NCBI RefSeq assembly: GCF_017894385.1
Contig: NZ_CP059560.1
Location: 4,782,501-4,846,500 of the forward strand
Reading direction: 5' to 3'
DNA: 64,000 bases
From: Aromatoleum petrolei
Lineage (GTDB): Bacteria > Pseudomonadota > Gammaproteobacteria > Burkholderiales > Rhodocyclaceae
Below, in pieces: positions 37,199 through 45,020 of this stretch; the stretch's first letter is position 1, and each line of letters opens with the position of its first letter. A program made the position numbers and the translations under genes. The notes below the pieces were generated by a model that had not been told where the DNA came from, ran no database searches, and was given only the letters and a program-made list of their open reading frames with translations.

Positions 37199-37984
37199 AT
37201 GGCGCAAGGCGTGTCGCGTACGCATATCAACGGTTCCGGGCTGGTTCGCGCGCTTGGCGGGCTGACGGCCGCTGACGTGCCCGCGTCGAAGCAGTCCTTT
37301 GCCGACCGGCTCGGCCAATGGCTGGGCTTCGCGGATGCGCTCACGCTTTATTCCGCGCTCAATGCCGGGACGCCCGGCGATGCCGTCCCTTCCTCCGGCG
37401 CCCCGTCGCAGGACGGCGAGGCGCTTCGGCAGGCCATGGTCCACCTGCGCGATGCCCTGACAGAATCGATCGCAAACGACGGGGTGTTCCGGCCGGGACC
37501 GGCCCGGATCGAACTGCCGACGCCCGATCCCCTGGTGCCGGTGGAGAGTGCGGCGGATTTCGCGCCCTACCATCGCTACTATCTCGCCCACCAACGCGAC
37601 ATGGCGGTGCGCGTCGGCCCCTTGCGGGCAATGGTTCGCGCGGCCCTGCAGGGGCGGTCGGGCGCCCTGGGTCGGCTGGCCGCGCTCGATGCGGTGATGG
37701 ACCAGGCGCTGGCCGCGCGCGAGCGCGAGCTGCTGGCGACCGTGCCGGCACTCCTGGGCAGGCGTTTCGAGCAATGCTACAACGCCCACCGCGCGACGCT
37801 CGCGGAAACGCCGACGGCCGATGATGCGGCCCGGTGGATGCAGCCGGGCGGGTGGCTGGCGGAATTCTGCCGTGAGATGCAGTCCGTGCTGCTTGCGGAG
37901 GTCGATCTACGGCTGCAACCGGTCGCAGGGCTGATCGCGGCCCTCGACGAAGCGGTGGCGAATGAGGTGACAAGTAAGCAATGA
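37199..37984 (+). CDS. DUF3348 protein, first gene of the DUF802/OmpA cluster
   Basis: 261 residues, soluble, largely helical, without signal peptide. The N-terminus HINGSGLVRALGGLTAADVP and the middle DFAPYHRYYLAHQRDMAVRV match the DUF3348 family. The last third is rich in Ala, Arg and Glu. The stop overlaps the next gene by 4 bases (ATGA), so it is coupled to the membrane protein. It occurs with DUF802, OmpA and DUF2894 partners in other betaproteobacteria, to my knowledge without a described function. A cytoplasmic partner of the motor-like complex is my inference. Confidence 0.75.
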   Translation: MAQGVSRTHINGSGLVRALGGLTAADVPASKQSFADRLGQWLGFADALTLYSALNAGTPGDAVPSSGAPSQDGEALRQAMVHLRDALTESIANDGVFRPGPARIELPTPDPLVPVESAADFAPYHRYYLAHQRDMAVRVGPLRAMVRAALQGRSGALGRLAALDAVMDQALAARERELLATVPALLGRRFEQCYNAHRATLAETPTADDAARWMQPGGWLAEFCREMQSVLLAEVDLRLQPVAGLIAALDEAVANEVTSKQ

Positions 37985-40191
37985 ATAGAATCATCTGTGT
38001 GGCAGCCTTCCTCGTGGGCCTGGTCGCCGTGTCGTGGGTCGGCGCCGGATACGTGGGTACCAGCGCGCTGGCGCTGACGATGACGGCAATCATCGGCGCG
38101 GTGTATGTGACGGGCGCGGCGGAACTGCGGCGCTTCCACTGCACCACGGGCGCTCTGGCGCGGGCGCTCGACGGGATTCCGGCGGATCTGTCGCATCCGG
38201 ACGAATGGCTGCGCCAGCTGCCGCCGTCCGTGCAGAATCCGGTGCGCCTGCGCATCGAAGGCGAGCGCGCGGGTCTGCCCGGCCCTGCGATGACCCCCTA
38301 TCTCGTGGGCCTGCTGGTGTTGCTGGGCATGCTCGGCACCTTCCTCGGCATGGTCGTGACGCTCAACGGCGCGGTCATCGCGCTGGAGAGCACCACCAAT
38401 CTGGAGGCGATCCGTTCTTCGCTCGCGGCGCCGGTGCGTGGCCTGGGGGTCGCGTTCGGCACCTCCGTGGCGGGCGTCGCGGCCTCGGCGATGCTGGGGC
38501 TGATCTCGGCCGTGTGCCGGCGCGAGCGCATGCGGGTCGCGCAGCTCCTCGAGACCCGCATCGGAACCTCGCTGCGCGGCTTCTCGCTCGCGCATCAGCG
38601 GCAGGAAACCTTCAAGGCCCTGCAACTGCAGGCGCGCGTGCTGCCGGAGCTGGTCGACAAGCTGCAGGCGATGATGGAGCAGATGGACCGGCAGGGCAGG
38701 GAGCTGAACGAGCGCCTCGTGGCCGGGCAGGAGCGCTTCCATCGCGATGCGCGCGAGGTGTATTCCGAACTGGCCTCGTCGGTGGACAAGTCGCTCAGGA
38801 CCAGCCTGGGCGAAAGCGCCCGCCTCGCCGGCGAGACCATCCGCCCCGCCGTGGCCGAGACGATGGACGGCATCGCGCGCGAGACCAGCGCGCTGCGGGC
38901 GCGGCTTGCCGAGGCGGTGCAGGCGCAGCTGGAAGGGATCTCGACGCGCTTCGACGGCAGCGTCACTCGGGTTGCCGAGACCTGGAACGCCGCGCTGGCG
39001 ACGCACGAGCGCACCAGCGAAGAACTGAGCCGCGGGATGCAGGGGGTGCTGGGCGCCTTCGGCGAGACTTTCGAGCGGCGCTCGGCCGCGCTGCTGGACT
39101 CGGTGGAAACGGCCCACGCGAGCCTGCGGTCCGATCTGGCCGCCACCACTTCGACGTTGGCGCAGGACACGGCCGCGCTCCAGACGCGTCTTGCCGATAC
39201 CGTCGAACGACAGCTCGACGGCGTGTCGACGCGCTTCGGCGACACGGCGGCGACCGTCGCCGCAAACTGGGCGTCAGCTCTCGCCAGCCACGAGCGCACC
39301 AGCGAACATCTCGCTAAGGACCTGCGCAAATCGCTCGAGACCTTCGCCGAGAATTTCGCGCAACGTTCGGCCGCGCTGGTGGCGGCGATCGGTGAATCCA
39401 CCGCCGCGCAGCAGGCGCGGCAGGCCGCGGCCGACGAGGCACGCCTCGTGGCGCAAACGCAGGCGCTGGAGTCGATGGCGGCTTCGCTGCAGCAGGAGTG
39501 GCACGCGGCCGGCGCACAGACGCTCGCGCGGCAGGAACAGATCTGCACGACGCTGGGCGAGACGGCGCACGAGATCGCCGCCGCGGCACGGGCCCAGGCC
39601 AGCGGCACCATCGAGGAGGTCGCCCGGCTCATGCACACGGCCGCGGAAGCGCCGCGTGCCGCGGCCGAGGTCATCGGCCAGCTGCGCCAGGAGCTCTCGG
39701 CGAGCATCGCGCGCGATAACGGGCTGCTCGAGGAACGCAGCCGCATCATGGAGACACTCGCGACGCTGCTGTCGGCGATCAACCACGCGTCGACCGAGCA
39801 GCGATCGGCGATCGACGCCCTGGTGGCCTCCGCGACCGGCCTGCTCGAGTGCGCCGGCAGCCGTTTCGCGGCGAACATCGAGGCGGAATCGGCGCGGATC
39901 GCGGACGTGGCGGGCGAGATCAGCGGAGGCGCCGCCGAGGTGGCGAGCCTGGGTGAGGCCTTCGGCGCAGCCGTGCAGCGCTTCGCCGAGTCCGGCGACC
40001 GGATGATGGTGACGCTGGCGCGCATCGAAGGTGCGCTCGACAAGTCGCTCGCGCGCAGCGATGAGCAACTCGCCTACTACGTCGCACAGGCGCGCGAGAT
40101 CATCGACTTGTCGATCATGTCGCAGCGGCAGATCGTCGAGGATCTGCAGCAGCTCTCCGGCAAGCAGGCGTCGCTTGTCGGCGAGGGGTGA
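37981..40191 (+). CDS. DUF802 protein: MotA/ExbB/ZorA-like membrane core with long coiled-coil tail
   Basis: 736 residues. Four hydrophobic segments lie near residues 4-22, 25-45, 107-130 (YLVGLLVLLGMLGTFLGMVV) and 154-178 (GLGVAFGTSVAGVAASAMLG). The last two carry the Gly-rich MotA/TolQ/ExbB proton-channel signature. The remaining 550 residues are a long helical, Ala/Glu-rich tail. It contains two clear repeats of about 95 residues with AETWNAALATHERTSEEL (about 331) and AANWASALASHERTSEHL (about 426). This layout, a MotA-type core plus long intracellular tail, is that of ZorA in Zorya defence. The gene is coupled to DUF3348 and ends 2 bases before the OmpA gene. Confidence 0.8.
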   Translation: MNRIICVAAFLVGLVAVSWVGAGYVGTSALALTMTAIIGAVYVTGAAELRRFHCTTGALARALDGIPADLSHPDEWLRQLPPSVQNPVRLRIEGERAGLPGPAMTPYLVGLLVLLGMLGTFLGMVVTLNGAVIALESTTNLEAIRSSLAAPVRGLGVAFGTSVAGVAASAMLGLISAVCRRERMRVAQLLETRIGTSLRGFSLAHQRQETFKALQLQARVLPELVDKLQAMMEQMDRQGRELNERLVAGQERFHRDAREVYSELASSVDKSLRTSLGESARLAGETIRPAVAETMDGIARETSALRARLAEAVQAQLEGISTRFDGSVTRVAETWNAALATHERTSEELSRGMQGVLGAFGETFERRSAALLDSVETAHASLRSDLAATTSTLAQDTAALQTRLADTVERQLDGVSTRFGDTAATVAANWASALASHERTSEHLAKDLRKSLETFAENFAQRSAALVAAIGESTAAQQARQAAADEARLVAQTQALESMAASLQQEWHAAGAQTLARQEQICTTLGETAHEIAAAARAQASGTIEEVARLMHTAAEAPRAAAEVIGQLRQELSASIARDNGLLEERSRIMETLATLLSAINHASTEQRSAIDALVASATGLLECAGSRFAANIEAESARIADVAGEISGGAAEVASLGEAFGAAVQRFAESGDRMMVTLARIEGALDKSLARSDEQLAYYVAQAREIIDLSIMSQRQIVEDLQQLSGKQASLVGEG

Positions 40192-40193
40192 GC

Positions 40194-40838
40194 ATGGACG
40201 AGTTCGACGGCGGCCTCGAGAATTCGACGACTGTCTGGGCGGTATTCGGCGACCTGATGTCGGGCCTGCTGGGAGCCTTTGTGCTGATCCTCGTCGGCGT
40301 GCTTGGCGTGCAGCTGGATCTGGTGAGTAGCCTGGAAGCGGAGGTGCAGAAGCGCCGCATCGAGGAGCAGCGCCGCGAGGCACTGGAAAAGGCGCTTGCG
40401 GTGCCGCTCGCCGCCGGGCGCGTGACGCTCGACGACGGTCGCATAGGCATCAGCGGCAGCGTGCTGTTCGAGCTCAACTCGGACAAACTGCAGCCCGAAG
40501 GCCGCCAGTTGCTGAAGAGCCTCGCGCCGCCGCTGGGCGCGTACCTGTCGGTCAACGATGAAATGCTCATGGTGAGCGGCTTCACCGATGACCGCCCGGT
40601 GCGCGACAGCAACCGCCAGTTCGCCGACAACCTCGAACTGTCCGCGCAGCGCGCCCTGACCGTGACGCGGGCGCTGATCGACGAGGGTATCCCGGCTAGC
40701 TCGGTATTTGCAGCGGCGTTTGGCCAGGAGCAGCCGGTCGCGTCCAATGCCGACGAGGAAGGGCGTTCGCGGAACCGGCGCGTCGAAATGGCACCGGTTC
40801 CCAAGTCAGGCAAAGCCGACGCAGCGGTCAATGGCTGA
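40194..40838 (+). CDS. MotB/ZorB-like OmpA-family protein
   Basis: 214 residues. The N-terminal segment VWAVFGDLMSGLLGAFVLIL is a single membrane helix with an acid (Asp20) at its entry, as in MotB and ZorB, where the Asp carries protons or ions. A short helical linker leads to a periplasmic OmpA peptidoglycan-binding domain: LFELNSDKLQPEGRQLL, VSGFTDDRPVRDSN, LSAQRALTVTRALID and GRSRNRRVEM. It directly follows the MotA-like gene, with GAGGGG as ribosome-binding site; an in-frame GTG lies six bases upstream. It overlaps the DUF2894 gene by 8 bases. Confidence 0.85.
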   Translation: MDEFDGGLENSTTVWAVFGDLMSGLLGAFVLILVGVLGVQLDLVSSLEAEVQKRRIEEQRREALEKALAVPLAAGRVTLDDGRIGISGSVLFELNSDKLQPEGRQLLKSLAPPLGAYLSVNDEMLMVSGFTDDRPVRDSNRQFADNLELSAQRALTVTRALIDEGIPASSVFAAAFGQEQPVASNADEEGRSRNRRVEMAPVPKSGKADAAVNG

Positions 40839-41574
40839 AGACGCTTTCCCGTCCGCAGACGTGCTGGTCGACGCCCTGCGCGCACGCAATGCCGAGCGTG
40901 TCGATCCGGTCGCCCTGCGCTTCGTCGAGGCCCTCGCACGCCGTGCCACGGACGGCTGCGAGGCGGCGCGCGCGGCCGTCCGGCGCCGGCTGGCGCAGGC
41001 CGTGTCCAATTGCCACGAGCGGCTCGACGCCGCCGGCCGGGCGGCGGACGATGTGTTCGCACGCGGGGCCGCGCGTTTCCCCGATTCCGTGGGAGCGCTG
41101 CAGCAATACCGCGAGGCCGGTGATGTGGCCGGCCTGCATTGCCTGTTGGCGCGGCTGGAGGGACAGGGCGCCGCCTCGCCCCTGGGCGGGCTGCTCGACC
41201 ACATCGGTCGCGACGTGCCCGAGTCCGCGGGTGGTTCCTCTTCCAGCAAGATAGGGGCGCCGCCTCCCGTAACCCGCGAGCTCAAGTCGCTGAGCTACTT
41301 CCGCAGCACCTGGTCGCGGCTCAGTCTCGAGCGGCAGCTGTCCGAAGCCTTCGCCCAGGCGCCCGAAAACGCCGGGCCGCTCAACTCGCATCACCTCGTG
41401 CTGCAGGCGCTGGGGCAGATGCGTGACATCTCGCCCGAATATCTGCGCGAGTTCATGTCCTACGTCGACGCCCTGCAGTGGCTGGAGCAGGCCGACAACA
41501 GCCGCATTCCCGCCCGCAACAGCACGGTGCGCAAAAGCGCCGCTCGGGGCGAGCGCGAGAAGAAGCGCAGGTAG
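40831..41574 (+). CDS. DUF2894 protein, last gene of the DUF802/OmpA cluster
   Basis: 247 residues, soluble, no signal peptide. The conserved C-terminal half reads KSLSYFRSTWSRLSLERQLS, then PLNSHHLVLQALGQMRDISP and REFMSYVDALQWLEQ, ending in a very basic tail. The N-terminal half is Ala/Arg-rich and helical. It overlaps the OmpA gene by 8 bases, so all four genes of the cluster are coupled or nearly so. No nuclease, helicase or other enzyme motif was found. Function unknown; probably a cytoplasmic partner. Confidence 0.75.
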   Translation: MAEDAFPSADVLVDALRARNAERVDPVALRFVEALARRATDGCEAARAAVRRRLAQAVSNCHERLDAAGRAADDVFARGAARFPDSVGALQQYREAGDVAGLHCLLARLEGQGAASPLGGLLDHIGRDVPESAGGSSSSKIGAPPPVTRELKSLSYFRSTWSRLSLERQLSEAFAQAPENAGPLNSHHLVLQALGQMRDISPEYLREFMSYVDALQWLEQADNSRIPARNSTVRKSAARGEREKKRR

Positions 41575-41656: not shown

Positions 41657-42979
41657 ATGTTTAGCACCGCACACGGCGACCACCTGCCCAGTCTTGTCGA
41701 TCTGCTGCTCGACGCGGTGTTTCTCGTCGACTCCGACGGACGTATCGCCTACGTGAGCGCCGCCTGCGAGCGCATGCTCGGTTACACGCCGCAGGAGATG
41801 ATCGGGCGGGAGCTGTTGGAGTTCCTCGTCCCCGAAGACCGGGAGCGGACCGTCGCAGAGGCCGGTGAAGTCGTCGCGGGGCGCTCGCGGATCGGTTTCG
41901 AGAACCGCTACATCCACAAGGACGGCCGTCACGTCCACCTCATGTGGTCCGCGCGCTGGTCCGAACGGGAGCGGTTGCGCATAGGCGTGGCACGCGACGT
42001 CTCCGAACTGAAGCACGCCGAGGCCATCCAGCGGGCCACCTACGCGATCTCCGAAGCCGCTCACGAAGCCGAGGATCTCGACGTCCTGCTGCGCGAGATC
42101 CATCGCATCATCGCCACGCTGGTGCCGCTGGCGGGTCTCGCCCTGGCGACTTGCGACAGGCGGACGGGGCAGCTTGCCTTCTCCTACCAGCGGGACTGTC
42201 ACGGCAATCCGCTGCCCCTGCACGAACCGGTCGCATGCGACTTCTGCTCCAAGGTGATCTGTGGCGGCAGGCCGGTCTACCTGCGTGATGGGGCGCTGGG
42301 CGCGCTCTCGGGCGACGACGAAGCCTGGTTCGCGATCCCGCTGATCGCGCAACATGAGACGATCGGTGCCCTGGTGCTGCAAGGCGATTCCGGCAAGGAC
42401 TACACGGAAAAGGACAGGGAGCTGCTGCATTACGTCGCCGAACAGGTAGCGATCGCAATCGATCGTGCCCAGCTCAAGGCCGAATTGCTGCGGGCGGCCC
42501 GCTACGATGAATTGACCGGCCTGCCGAACCGGCGCTTCTTCAACGACCGCATCAAGGCGGTCGTCGCCCGAAGCATGCGCAATCAGGCGCGCATGGCGCT
42601 GCTGTACATCGATCTCGACGATTTCAAACAGGTTAACGACTCGCTCGGGCACGCGAGCGGTGATCAGCTGCTGCAGGAGGTTGCGCGGCGGATTCAGCGC
42701 TGCGTGCGCGGGACCGACACGGTCGCCCGCCTTGGCGGTGATGAATTCGTCGTCCTGCTCGACGACTTGCACACGCCGGATGACGCCCGCGGCGTCGCCG
42801 ACAAAATCCGCGAAGCGGTGAGCCACCCGGTCGACCTCGGTTCATGCGTCCTGCGTACACAGGCCAGTATCGGCATTGCCGTGTATCCGGATCACGGCCA
42901 GGAAATCGACCGGATCCTGCAGTACGCCGACATGGCGATGTACGAGGACAAGCGGAACAAGACCTTGCAGGCGATGTAG
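41657..42979 (+). CDS. PAS-GAF-GGDEF diguanylate cyclase
   Basis: 440 residues, no membrane segment. A PAS domain (about 10-125, DAVFLVDSDGRIAYVSAACE) is followed by a GAF-like domain (about 140-270) and a GGDEF domain (about 285-440). The active-site motif RLGGDEFVVLL is intact, and the inhibitory I-site RGTD sits five residues before it, so product inhibition is likely. It makes c-di-GMP from GTP. A Cys-rich stretch in the GAF region (ACDFCSKVICGG) might bind a metal or sense redox. Single gene, about 80 bases after DUF2894. Confidence 0.9.
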   Translation: MFSTAHGDHLPSLVDLLLDAVFLVDSDGRIAYVSAACERMLGYTPQEMIGRELLEFLVPEDRERTVAEAGEVVAGRSRIGFENRYIHKDGRHVHLMWSARWSERERLRIGVARDVSELKHAEAIQRATYAISEAAHEAEDLDVLLREIHRIIATLVPLAGLALATCDRRTGQLAFSYQRDCHGNPLPLHEPVACDFCSKVICGGRPVYLRDGALGALSGDDEAWFAIPLIAQHETIGALVLQGDSGKDYTEKDRELLHYVAEQVAIAIDRAQLKAELLRAARYDELTGLPNRRFFNDRIKAVVARSMRNQARMALLYIDLDDFKQVNDSLGHASGDQLLQEVARRIQRCVRGTDTVARLGGDEFVVLLDDLHTPDDARGVADKIREAVSHPVDLGSCVLRTQASIGIAVYPDHGQEIDRILQYADMAMYEDKRNKTLQAM

Positions 42980-43126: not shown

Positions 43127-43717
43127 TCAATCGAGGCAGCATGCGGCTTCTGCGGGTTCCTCGCAGCCGCAGTGGACCTGTCCGGCAATGTGGCGGTGAA
43201 TCGACCTGAAGCGTTCCTGCACCGTGTCGCCGAAGATCGGGTCCGAAGCGAAATGGATCGCCGAATCGACGAGAAACCAATCGTCGTCGCTCAGCGAAGC
43301 GTCCAGTCGCGGGAAAATCTCGCGCTCTTCGGTGTCCATGTGATCCTTCAGAAACACCACGTAGTCGTGGACGTCCGCCTGCAAGGTCGCGCGTGGCATC
43401 ATCGTTCCCGCGGCAGCGGCGGCCAGGTCCGTGGCCAACCTTGCGCTGCTCTCGGCAATTGAACGGTGCTCGCCCGTGAGATGTTCGATCAAGGGTCTGG
43501 CCTGGGGGTCGTGGGCGAGCAGGCGGCCGAACGCTTCATCCTCGCGTGGATGGTGGTAGTGGTCCGGGTACTGCGTCATGTAATACACGATGTCCGCCAT
43601 CAAATCGTAATCGAGCTCGTCGCCGTCGACGAAGTTGGCGATCAGCGCCTCGAGCAGATCGAGCAGCTTGCGGTAATTGGCGTGCTCGGCGCGCCATTTC
43701 TGAACATGTGCGGTCAT
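43127..43717 (-). CDS. Hemerythrin (HHE) domain protein
   Basis: 196 residues. Candidate di-iron ligands are His and Glu in RAEHANYRKLL, QYPDHYHHPREDEAFGRL, LTGEHRSIAES and FLKDHMDTEEREIFP, the hemerythrin/HHE pattern. The C-terminus is Cys-rich (VHCGCEEPAEAACCLD), which is unusual and may bind metal. The start MTAHVQKW has an AGGAG site. It is divergent from the ferredoxin gene, sharing a 189-base region with a Crp/Fnr-type site. Likely roles are oxygen or nitric oxide sensing or Fe-S repair; not determinable here. Confidence 0.85.
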   Translation of the reverse strand: MTAHVQKWRAEHANYRKLLDLLEALIANFVDGDELDYDLMADIVYYMTQYPDHYHHPREDEAFGRLLAHDPQARPLIEHLTGEHRSIAESSARLATDLAAAAAGTMMPRATLQADVHDYVVFLKDHMDTEEREIFPRLDASLSDDDWFLVDSAIHFASDPIFGDTVQERFRSIHRHIAGQVHCGCEEPAEAACCLD

Positions 43718-43821
43718 GACGATCTCCTGCAGTCGTTGGGGTAACACTGGCGCTCCGGCTGGCTCTATCCGGCGCCGGTGTGCGCGGTGTAGTTAATGCT
43801 ATGGAGGCGGGCTGGTGGGGG

Positions 43822-43839
43822 GAATGACTTTTGTCATTC
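43822..43839. promoter_or_regulatory. Crp/Fnr-type palindrome upstream of fdxA
   Basis: GAATGAC-TTTT-GTCATTC has perfect 7-base arms and the TGA-N6-TCA core of Crp/Fnr-family sites. A TACATT -10-like element lies at 43861-43866, which would put the site centre near -42, the class II activator position. The inner bases differ from the Fnr consensus (C/G in place of T/A). Confidence 0.5.
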
Positions 43840-43906
43840 AGCGTGGCCAGGTCCGGGGCTTACATTGCTCCCACACCCCAACCGAACAGCCTGTGAGAGC
43901 AAAGCC

Positions 43907-44230
43907 ATGACCTACGTTGTCACCGAAGCCTGCATCAAGTGCAAGCACACCGATTGTGTCGATGTTTGCCCGGTCGACGCTTTTCGCGAAGGCCCGAATT
44001 TTCTCGTGATCGACCCGCAGGAATGCATTGACTGCACGCTGTGCGTCGCCGAGTGCCCGGTCGATGCGATCTATGCCGAGGACGATGTGCCGACCGATCA
44101 GCGGCACTTCATCGCGCTCAACGAGGAACTGGCAAAGGTCTGGATCCCGATCGTCGAGGTCAAGCCCGCACCTCCGGATGCGGGCGTGTGGGCAAAGGTG
44201 AAGGACAAGCTCGGTCTGCTCGAACGTTGA
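43907..44230 (+). CDS. fdxA: 7Fe ferredoxin FdxA
   Basis: 107-residue cytoplasmic ferredoxin. The first cluster motif is [18 protein letters not shown] and the second [16 protein letters not shown], the pattern of 3Fe-4S plus 4Fe-4S ferredoxins of the Azotobacter FdI type. The C-terminal 45 residues wrap round the fold as in that family. A Crp/Fnr-type palindrome precedes it. It is convergent with the Crp/Fnr regulator gene, 25 bases away. It could serve low-oxygen electron transfer. Confidence 0.93.
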
Positions 44231-44255
44231 GCAGCCGTCGAGGGCGTCGCGGCGC

Positions 44256-45020
44256 TCAGGACTCGACGATCCGCTCCAGCATGTCGGGGCGCATGATCTC
44301 GATCCGACCGGGTCGCGACGCGATCCAGCCGGCCTTCTGCCACCGGCTCAAAATGCGGATCACGGTTTCGACCCGCGCGCTCACGAGTTGGCTGAGTTCG
44401 TCGCGGGCGAGATGCACGTCGATGATGACACTGCCCGTGGCCGTCGTTCGACCGAACCGCTCGATCAGGTAATGCATCAGCGCCGCCAGGCGGCGCGGCA
44501 CCGAGCCGGCGCTGACGATGTCGATCTTCGCGCGCAGCGCGACGGTGTGCCGCAGCAGTGCGCGGTTGATCGCGCGCCCGACAGCGATGGAATTGTCGAG
44601 GGCGTCCCGCAGGGTATCGGCACGAATCGACAGCAACTCGACCGGTTCGCCGAGTGCGATGGCGTCTGCGGGAAAGATGCCATCTTCGAGCGCCGCCGCA
44701 AGGCCGACTGCCTCGCCGCGCCGGAACAGGCCCATCAGGATGCCCTCGCCGCTTGGCGTCATCTGGCGGATCTGGATTACCCCGGATTCGATGACCGAAA
44801 ACCAGCTCGCACGCTCCCCGGCGTACCACAGCGATTCACCGGCTTCCAGGCGGCGCGGGCGCGTGCCTTGCGCAAGATGCCGGAGATCGTCCAGCCCCAC
44901 ATGCGCGAACAGTTCGAGCGTGCCGAGTCGCTGTGCCAGCGCGTCGGCGAATACACCGCCGCGCCCTTCCGATGTGGCGGGCGGGGGATGCAGGAGTGAG
45001 AAGGGCGGGGCGTGTCCCAT
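44256..45020 (-). CDS. Crp/Fnr-family transcriptional regulator
   Basis: 254 residues. A cyclic-nucleotide-binding-like beta-barrel (about 35-150; SLWYAGERASWFSVIESGVI) and a winged helix (about 170-250) with recognition region LARDELSQLVSARVETVIRI are present. The N-terminal cysteines that hold the Fe-S cluster in Fnr are absent, so it does not sense oxygen in that way; it is nearer Dnr/NnrR or other non-Fnr classes. The start at MGHAPPFS is the most upstream in-frame ATG and has a weak site. It follows sdhB on the same strand after 33 bases and may be cotranscribed. Targets might include the palindrome before fdxA. Confidence 0.85.
   Translation of the reverse strand: MGHAPPFSLLHPPPATSEGRGGVFADALAQRLGTLELFAHVGLDDLRHLAQGTRPRRLEAGESLWYAGERASWFSVIESGVIQIRQMTPSGEGILMGLFRRGEAVGLAAALEDGIFPADAIALGEPVELLSIRADTLRDALDNSIAVGRAINRALLRHTVALRAKIDIVSAGSVPRRLAALMHYLIERFGRTTATGSVIIDVHLARDELSQLVSARVETVIRILSRWQKAGWIASRPGRIEIMRPDMLERIVES

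Follow-up and report, generated by a model that had tools for sequence, protein, structure and literature searches.

TolQR and ExbBD follow a general plan in which a channel protein is paired with a protein carrying a single Asp-bearing helix, and the flagellar MotAB is built likewise; to our knowledge, none of the three has a counterpart of the ZorA3 tail and the two partner proteins encoded by the locus described here, a four-gene cassette at positions 37199-41574 of a 64,000-nucleotide stretch of Aromatoleum petrolei (NZ_CP059560.1; hereafter the window, in which all coordinates are given). The closest described systems are the Zorya anti-phage systems. Types I and II likewise combine a motor pair, a membrane Asp, a peptidoglycan-binding domain and a long ZorA tail: cryo-electron microscopy resolved five ZorA around two ZorB (ZorA5B2), and defence requires or is strongly influenced by the Asp, peptidoglycan binding and the tail (PMC11890865). 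The type II effector, ZorE, is a nickase (PMC11890865). Type III was named in 2021 for 6,401 gene pairs (printed as 'zorBC') situated between DUF3348 and DUF2894 genes (PMC8565338), and the identical composition is given in PMC11890865. In the former, Payne et al. propose a regulatory role for the two extra proteins, which would act on ZorAB where other types have ZorC, ZorD and ZorE, and a type III system of Stenotrophomonas nitritireducens, a locus other than the window's, protects Escherichia coli from phage (PMC8565338).

The window cassette and its motor pair

The window cassette contains these same four families, with the DUF3348 and DUF2894 genes flanking adjacent homologues of ZorA3 and ZorB3, and the best PADLOC models for its proteins are those of Zorya type III, which match 4/4 proteins at E-values of 1.4e-63 to 3.2e-296. 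Together with the 2021 naming and the phage tests in E. coli, these matches refute the sequence-only reading of this DNA where it suggested that the cassette may be a system not yet described: the system is already known, the window pair is ZorA3 and ZorB3 themselves rather than lookalikes, and the locus is an ordinary member of an experimentally supported defence system. What remains of that reading is a ZorAB-type motor with two partners, without the novelty. Taken jointly, the identity of the cassette as a Zorya type III anti-phage system and the presence in it of a motor pair are, in our judgement, highly probable. Nothing distinctive was found in comparison with other type III systems; the window ZorA3 has two 95-residue tail units, and its near relatives have one, two or three. 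The features are:

37199-37984, + strand: DUF3348 protein, 261 amino acids (aa); PF11828 at 4e-84, PADLOC PDLC00658 at 8.4e-83
37981-40191, + strand: ZorA3, 736 aa, with a channel part at about residues 1-190 and a DUF802 helical tail; PDLC00650 at 3.2e-296
38854-39423, + strand: two tandem 95-residue units of the ZorA3 tail (about residues 292-386 and 387-481), from the best self-match; unit borders approximate
40188-40838, + strand: ZorB3, with a membrane helix carrying Asp20 and an OmpA-type domain; PADLOC PDLC00651 at 3e-112, NCBIfam PRK09040
40831-41574, + strand: DUF2894 protein, 247 aa, helical, with a basic C-terminal end; PF11445 at 1e-56, PDLC00652 at 1.4e-63
41657-42979, + strand: PAS-GAF-GGDEF protein, a genus-conserved neighbour outside the system; PF00990 at 6e-49

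The four genes overlap or nearly so, as had been noticed from the sequence: the DUF3348 and ZorA3 genes share 4 bp, ZorB3 starts either at GTG 40188 (a 4 bp overlap with ZorA3) or at ATG 40194 (a 2 bp gap), and the DUF2894 gene, starting at ATG 40831, overlaps ZorB3 by 8 bp. The family assignments made at that time are likewise reproduced by Pfam for all four proteins (PF11828 at 4e-84; PF05650, DUF802, at 3e-34 in two stretches; PF00691, OmpA, at 1e-16; PF11445 at 1e-56). A scan for promoters and terminators gave no useful signal. Two cytoplasmic partners had been proposed to stand in place of the ZorC, ZorD and ZorE effectors, and this holds locally: DUF3348 and DUF2894 are present, and no PADLOC match to ZorC or ZorD (type I) or to ZorE (type II) was obtained in the four proteins (E<=1) or in 10 neighbours (E<=1e-5), the remaining genome not having been searched. 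Names for the two partners conflict: PMC8565338 and PMC11890865 both use ZorF for the DUF3348 protein and ZorG for the DUF2894 protein, whereas the corresponding PADLOC-DB models are named ZorG3 and ZorF3, respectively.

The ZorB3 membrane Asp, residue 20 counted from the ATG (22 from the GTG), lies within the motif FGDLM and is invariant in 22/22 aligned sequences, the window's included, which together with the OmpA match bears out the earlier description of a partner with one Asp-bearing helix and a peptidoglycan-binding domain. Two OmpA-domain residues, D132 and R196, are likewise invariant in these 22/22 sequences and are probable peptidoglycan binders by analogy with the OmpA family. The top solved sequence relative of ZorB3 is a MotB (6ysl, 8e-13), but the protein falls well below the NCBIfam cut-offs for MotB, MotD and MotS among the best 25 of 42 families (e.g., 88.9 against 283 bits for MotD, PRK09038), and instead exceeds that of PRK09040, a 'hypothetical protein' (371.5 bits against a cut-off of 194).

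In ZorA3, hydropathy segments span residues 1-47, 103-136 and 157-179. Pfam MotA_ExbB gave no match at E<=1, and a single-sequence search at the same threshold found no solved relative; the MotA/ExbB-type channel predicted earlier is nevertheless recovered by the PADLOC models of ZorA1 (1e-12) and ZorA2 (8e-10), which match at about residues 107-194. These matches, like those of the ZorB1 and ZorB2 models to ZorB3, are weak. Residues T161, S162 and S169 are invariant in 94/94 ZorA3 sequences, and position 120 is Thr in 93/94. The ZorB3 Asp would thus probably face a ring of ZorA3 Ser and Thr residues, and the models, the invariant Asp and the polar channel residues together support, at the level of sequence, the motor pairing in the window cassette.

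Length and helical register of the ZorA3 tail

Beyond residue 190, the window ZorA3 continues for 546 residues that include 3 prolines, in line with the helical tail of about 550 residues described from the sequence alone. A self-match at offset 95 is evident (best 60-residue ungapped score of 156, where none of 100 shuffles exceeded 53); since only two copies occur at this offset, the '95-residue repeats' of the earlier description are two units in the window protein. Relatives differ in the number of such units: among 95 unique ZorA3 frames, lengths in the window's wider group bunch at 640-645, 734-739 and 825-831, i.e., about 95 apart, those of Burkholderiaceae are 697, 784-785, 871 and 959 (a unit of 87), and two further lengths, 809 and 882 (a unit of 73), include one from a Zoogloea. 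Further relatives have intermediate lengths, and the tails as a whole, taken as frame length minus 190, span about 365-770 residues. In several aligned pairs the only difference in length is a clean gap the size of one unit; that between the window ZorA3 and its homologue at locus L049 is a single clean 95-residue gap, with 78% identity elsewhere. In a second genus the steps are 102, 51, 40 and 11, some with an extra gap of 1-2 residues, along with single steps of 103 and 152. On a tree of the ZorA N-terminal part and ZorB from 39 proteins, to which unit counts were assigned mainly via length class, at least 9 changes in the count of 95-residue units are needed.

Two loci carry short ZorA3 frames in otherwise complete cassettes. 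At L159 (1857-3239), the frame is 461 aa long and ends 949 bases before ZorB3, with no masked letters, and may be broken or misassembled; at L162 (9771-11138), a frame of 456 aa ends 763 bases before ZorB3 and has 100 masked letters inside.

The hydrophobicity of the tail has a period of 3.64 residues (mean of 91 proteins; 3.65 in the window ZorA3), and we asked how gap sizes relate to it. The 476 near-neighbour pairs among 113 ZorA3 proteins comprised 133 without a tail gap and 173 with at least two gaps, neither of which were used, and 170 with exactly one; these yielded 26 distinct single-gap sizes of at least 5, which are not independent of one another. Excluded were L077 (with a mis-called start), L159, L162 and any protein shorter than 541 aa. 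The mean cosine phase of the 26 sizes was 0.72 at a period of 3.64 and 0.77 at 3.65, and 0/20000 sets jittered by up to 5 residues matched the observed phase at either period; the effect also holds at 3.667 (1/20000 jittered sets). Tail steps are thus mostly whole helix turns, such as those of 95, 87, 73, 51, 40 and 11 residues. Neither partner protein shows such a preference, whether in DUF3348 (all gaps, taken because single gaps of at least 5 were too few; 12 sizes, 9956/20000) or in DUF2894 (single gaps, 16 sizes, 19107/20000; all gaps, 8542/20000), with gaps in this control being smaller than those in the tail.

Indels that preserve register are expected in any coiled coil, and so the phase result speaks for an uninterrupted rod and is compatible with rotation without demonstrating it. 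Since most differences in tail length amount to whole turns, the simplest picture of the rod is a continuous bundle locked in register, which could carry torque or a conformational signal. By analogy with types I and II, tail periodicity and indel phase are consistent with a ZorA5B2 assembly having a single tail bundle. In the literature searched, nothing linked ZorA to hendecads, nor ZorA or Zorya to coiled-coil repeats, and natural ZorA3 tails of many lengths, mostly in whole-turn steps, offer rulers for asking whether the tail transmits rotation.

Distribution and inheritance

The order of the four genes is identical in 38/38 cassette regions, retrieved from 41 genomes besides the window's (three were left out on account of short contigs or a contig edge), and all four genes stand in order at 69/80 loci from a set of genome contigs that includes some of the same strains; the other 11 end at a contig end. 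DUF3348, used as a marker, lies above its cut-off in 11/17 genomes of the window's genus (15/17 at E<=0.001, the extra four being short and weak), 26/150 of its family (28/150 at E<=0.001) and 8/369 of a class sample, the three samples sharing a few genomes.

Occurrence is much denser in a genus reached via genome G327, where 77/81 sampled species genomes have DUF3348 and the four without it include one genome that is only 76% complete. No genome of the 81 has two separate DUF3348 genes (6 show two pieces of one frame), and the restriction family HSDR_N is found in 42/81, 41 of them above cut-off. Across the family of this genus, DUF3348 occurs in 70/198 genomes and 18/54 genera, with one match being a 42-residue piece. 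A complete cassette is present in 23/23 genomes of a tree sample consisting of 20 genomes of the genus, G327, G436 and one outgroup. The tree of ZorA N-terminal part and ZorB shares 13/20 splits with that of rpoB and differs in 7/20, and cassette and rpoB distances are correlated (Mantel r 0.71, 0/2000 permutations). This agreement of trees and distances indicates that inheritance in the genus has been mainly vertical, with exceptions and moves: shared flanking genes define about five contexts among the 23 genomes, and some loci share little or nothing. In G574 and G547 (loci L259 and L261), the cassettes have a flanking context of their own and branch off the position given by rpoB, making them candidates for transfer or replacement.

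ZorB3 matched 27/72,556 plasmid records at E<=1e-50, all of at least 366 kb and one of them a 738 kb plasmid from Azoarcus sp. KH32C, whereas none of 50,697 phage records gave a match at E<=1e-30. The 28 loci on viral contigs that match ZorB3 do so at no more than 38% identity and nearly all within the OmpA domain.

Partner proteins, alternative explanations and neighbouring genes

The DUF3348 protein is modelled by AlphaFold2 as helices only (pLDDT 86.7, pTM 0.83) and has no membrane segment by hydropathy, and the DUF2894 model is also made up of helices only. The last 25 residues of DUF2894 carry a net charge of +3 or more in 92/93 aligned sequences (median +6). Above the Pfam cut-offs the two proteins match only DUF families, no enzyme fold was found in either, and an HNH domain is absent from the Pfam matches of the four proteins. 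With all-helical partners and no enzyme fold, type III may, if the models are right, do without the nuclease of types I and II. DUF3348, DUF2894 and DUF802 are rarely named in the literature searched, and how type III acts without a visible nuclease is a worthwhile question for specialists.

We propose that five ZorA3 and two ZorB3 would assemble in the inner membrane into a rotary unit driven by ions, as in types I and II, with the ZorB3 OmpA domain serving as its anchor in peptidoglycan, as is established for those types. The ZorA3 tails would bundle into a single long cytoplasmic rod that transmits either torque or a conformational signal away from the membrane, with its far end engaging DUF3348 and DUF2894, two putatively non-enzymatic helical proteins. 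The basic end of DUF2894 might then hold or block incoming phage DNA near the site of injection, allowing type III to act without a nuclease of its own. This last step is the weakest: that the partners stop phage DNA without a nuclease is, on its own, a tentative suggestion that we find somewhat doubtful, and the full composite, a nuclease-free and largely resident motor in which the angle of the tail tip relative to the motor matters and in which the rod, by turning or by transmitting torque, acts on two non-enzymatic helical partners that arrest phage DNA uncut, we consider rather unlikely to be correct in every part.

Several results weigh against this proposal. At a period of 3.6 the phase effect in the tail is gone (4349/20000 jittered sets), and at 3.64 6/26 gap sizes are off phase (6, 94, 150, 174, 190 and 241), two of which, 174 and 190, correspond to double units of 87 and 95. 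The DUF2894 model has an uncertain overall arrangement (pTM 0.49), the basic end of this protein may bind membrane, RNA or protein rather than DNA, and the helical models of the partners are compatible with an enzyme of a kind not known. For a defence system it is unusual that nearly every sampled species of a genus (77/81) has the marker, and the type III activity known to us comes only from inducible expression in E. coli (PMC8565338).

A different role for the partners would follow if DUF3348 and DUF2894 gate ZorAB, such that infection opens the channel, the membrane is depolarised and the cell stops before phage release, with no effector acting on DNA. Payne et al. propose that the partners regulate ZorAB and cite the idea of abortive infection through a proton channel (PMC8565338), and neither partner resembles an enzyme. 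However, type II has an effector, ZorE, that is a nickase (PMC11890865), and Zorya therefore does not in general work through ion flow by itself; a pure leak, moreover, has no obvious need for a tail that spans about 365-770 residues and mostly keeps its helical register, or for the conserved basic end of DUF2894. We view this explanation, too, as fairly improbable. That the cassette merely brings together a TolQ/ExbB-like protein, a generic OmpA protein and two unrelated genes has in its favour that OmpA-domain proteins are common and that ZorB3 matches many of them, but it is refuted by the conserved gene order at 38/38 and 69/80 loci and by the matches to models specific for type III, leaving it a negligible probability.

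The distribution bears on yet another explanation, in which the cassette encodes an envelope machine that is inherited vertically and serves its host in some way other than phage defence, such as by transferring force or signals at the cell wall, and protection of E. coli is a by-product. The single-copy presence of the marker throughout most of the G327-reached genus, where HSDR_N is found in only about half of the genomes, the agreement with rpoB, the scarcity on plasmids (none below 366 kb), the absence of phage matches and the lack of any PADLOC match at E<=1e-5 among 10 window neighbours are all what such a machine would lead one to see. Against it stand the many relatives in family and class without the marker above cut-off, the variety of flanks even inside that genus, the 7/20 discordant splits with some cassettes branching away, matches to restriction and methyltransferase models among neighbours in other genomes, and the phage protection measured for type III (PMC8565338); on balance we judge it unlikely. 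The sequence-only reading had counted membership in a core gene set as a sign against an ion-driven machine: near-universal presence was indeed encountered in one genus, but it is no argument against ion flow, and it raises the question of whether defence systems, usually patchy, can in some cases be resident.

The defence-island comparison used 143 neighbour proteins (the first 143 of 156) from 25 loci outside the window's genus, omitting proteins longer than 900 aa, loci L082, L084 and L085 and part of L083, and 129 control proteins from 20 hand-placed stretches in 20 of the genomes, all searched with PADLOC at 1e-15. The neighbours match 76 PADLOC families; in the best 25 of the 76, one model is matched by 3 members and the rest by single ones, with restriction and methyltransferase models among the matches listed. 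The controls match 20 families, which contain no restriction or methyltransferase models but do include DpdF and PsyrT matches that probably reflect a housekeeping helicase. These numbers are too small to indicate an enrichment of defence genes.

The PAS-GAF-GGDEF gene lies directly 3' of the cassette in 8/11 loci of the window's genus, with pieces in a ninth. As a general fifth component, a diguanylate-cyclase partner is rejected because GGDEF genes are not clearly enriched outside the genus: one occurs within two genes of the cassette in 16/95 unique loci, 8 of those in the window's genus, and 25 of these genomes contain from 0 to 95 GGDEF matches each. Clustering of neighbours at 119 loci revealed no clear fifth gene; the largest cluster, at 40/119 loci with duplicate strains included, is a chained set of proteins at many positions that includes GGDEF-type ones, and the second largest is found at 14/119. 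A clean empty site was not found, with G005 lacking the cassette but retaining the GGDEF gene. Further downstream in the window (43127-45020), genes for a hemerythrin, a ferredoxin with DUF3470 and a Crp-type regulator form a block that is collinear with several loci of the genus.

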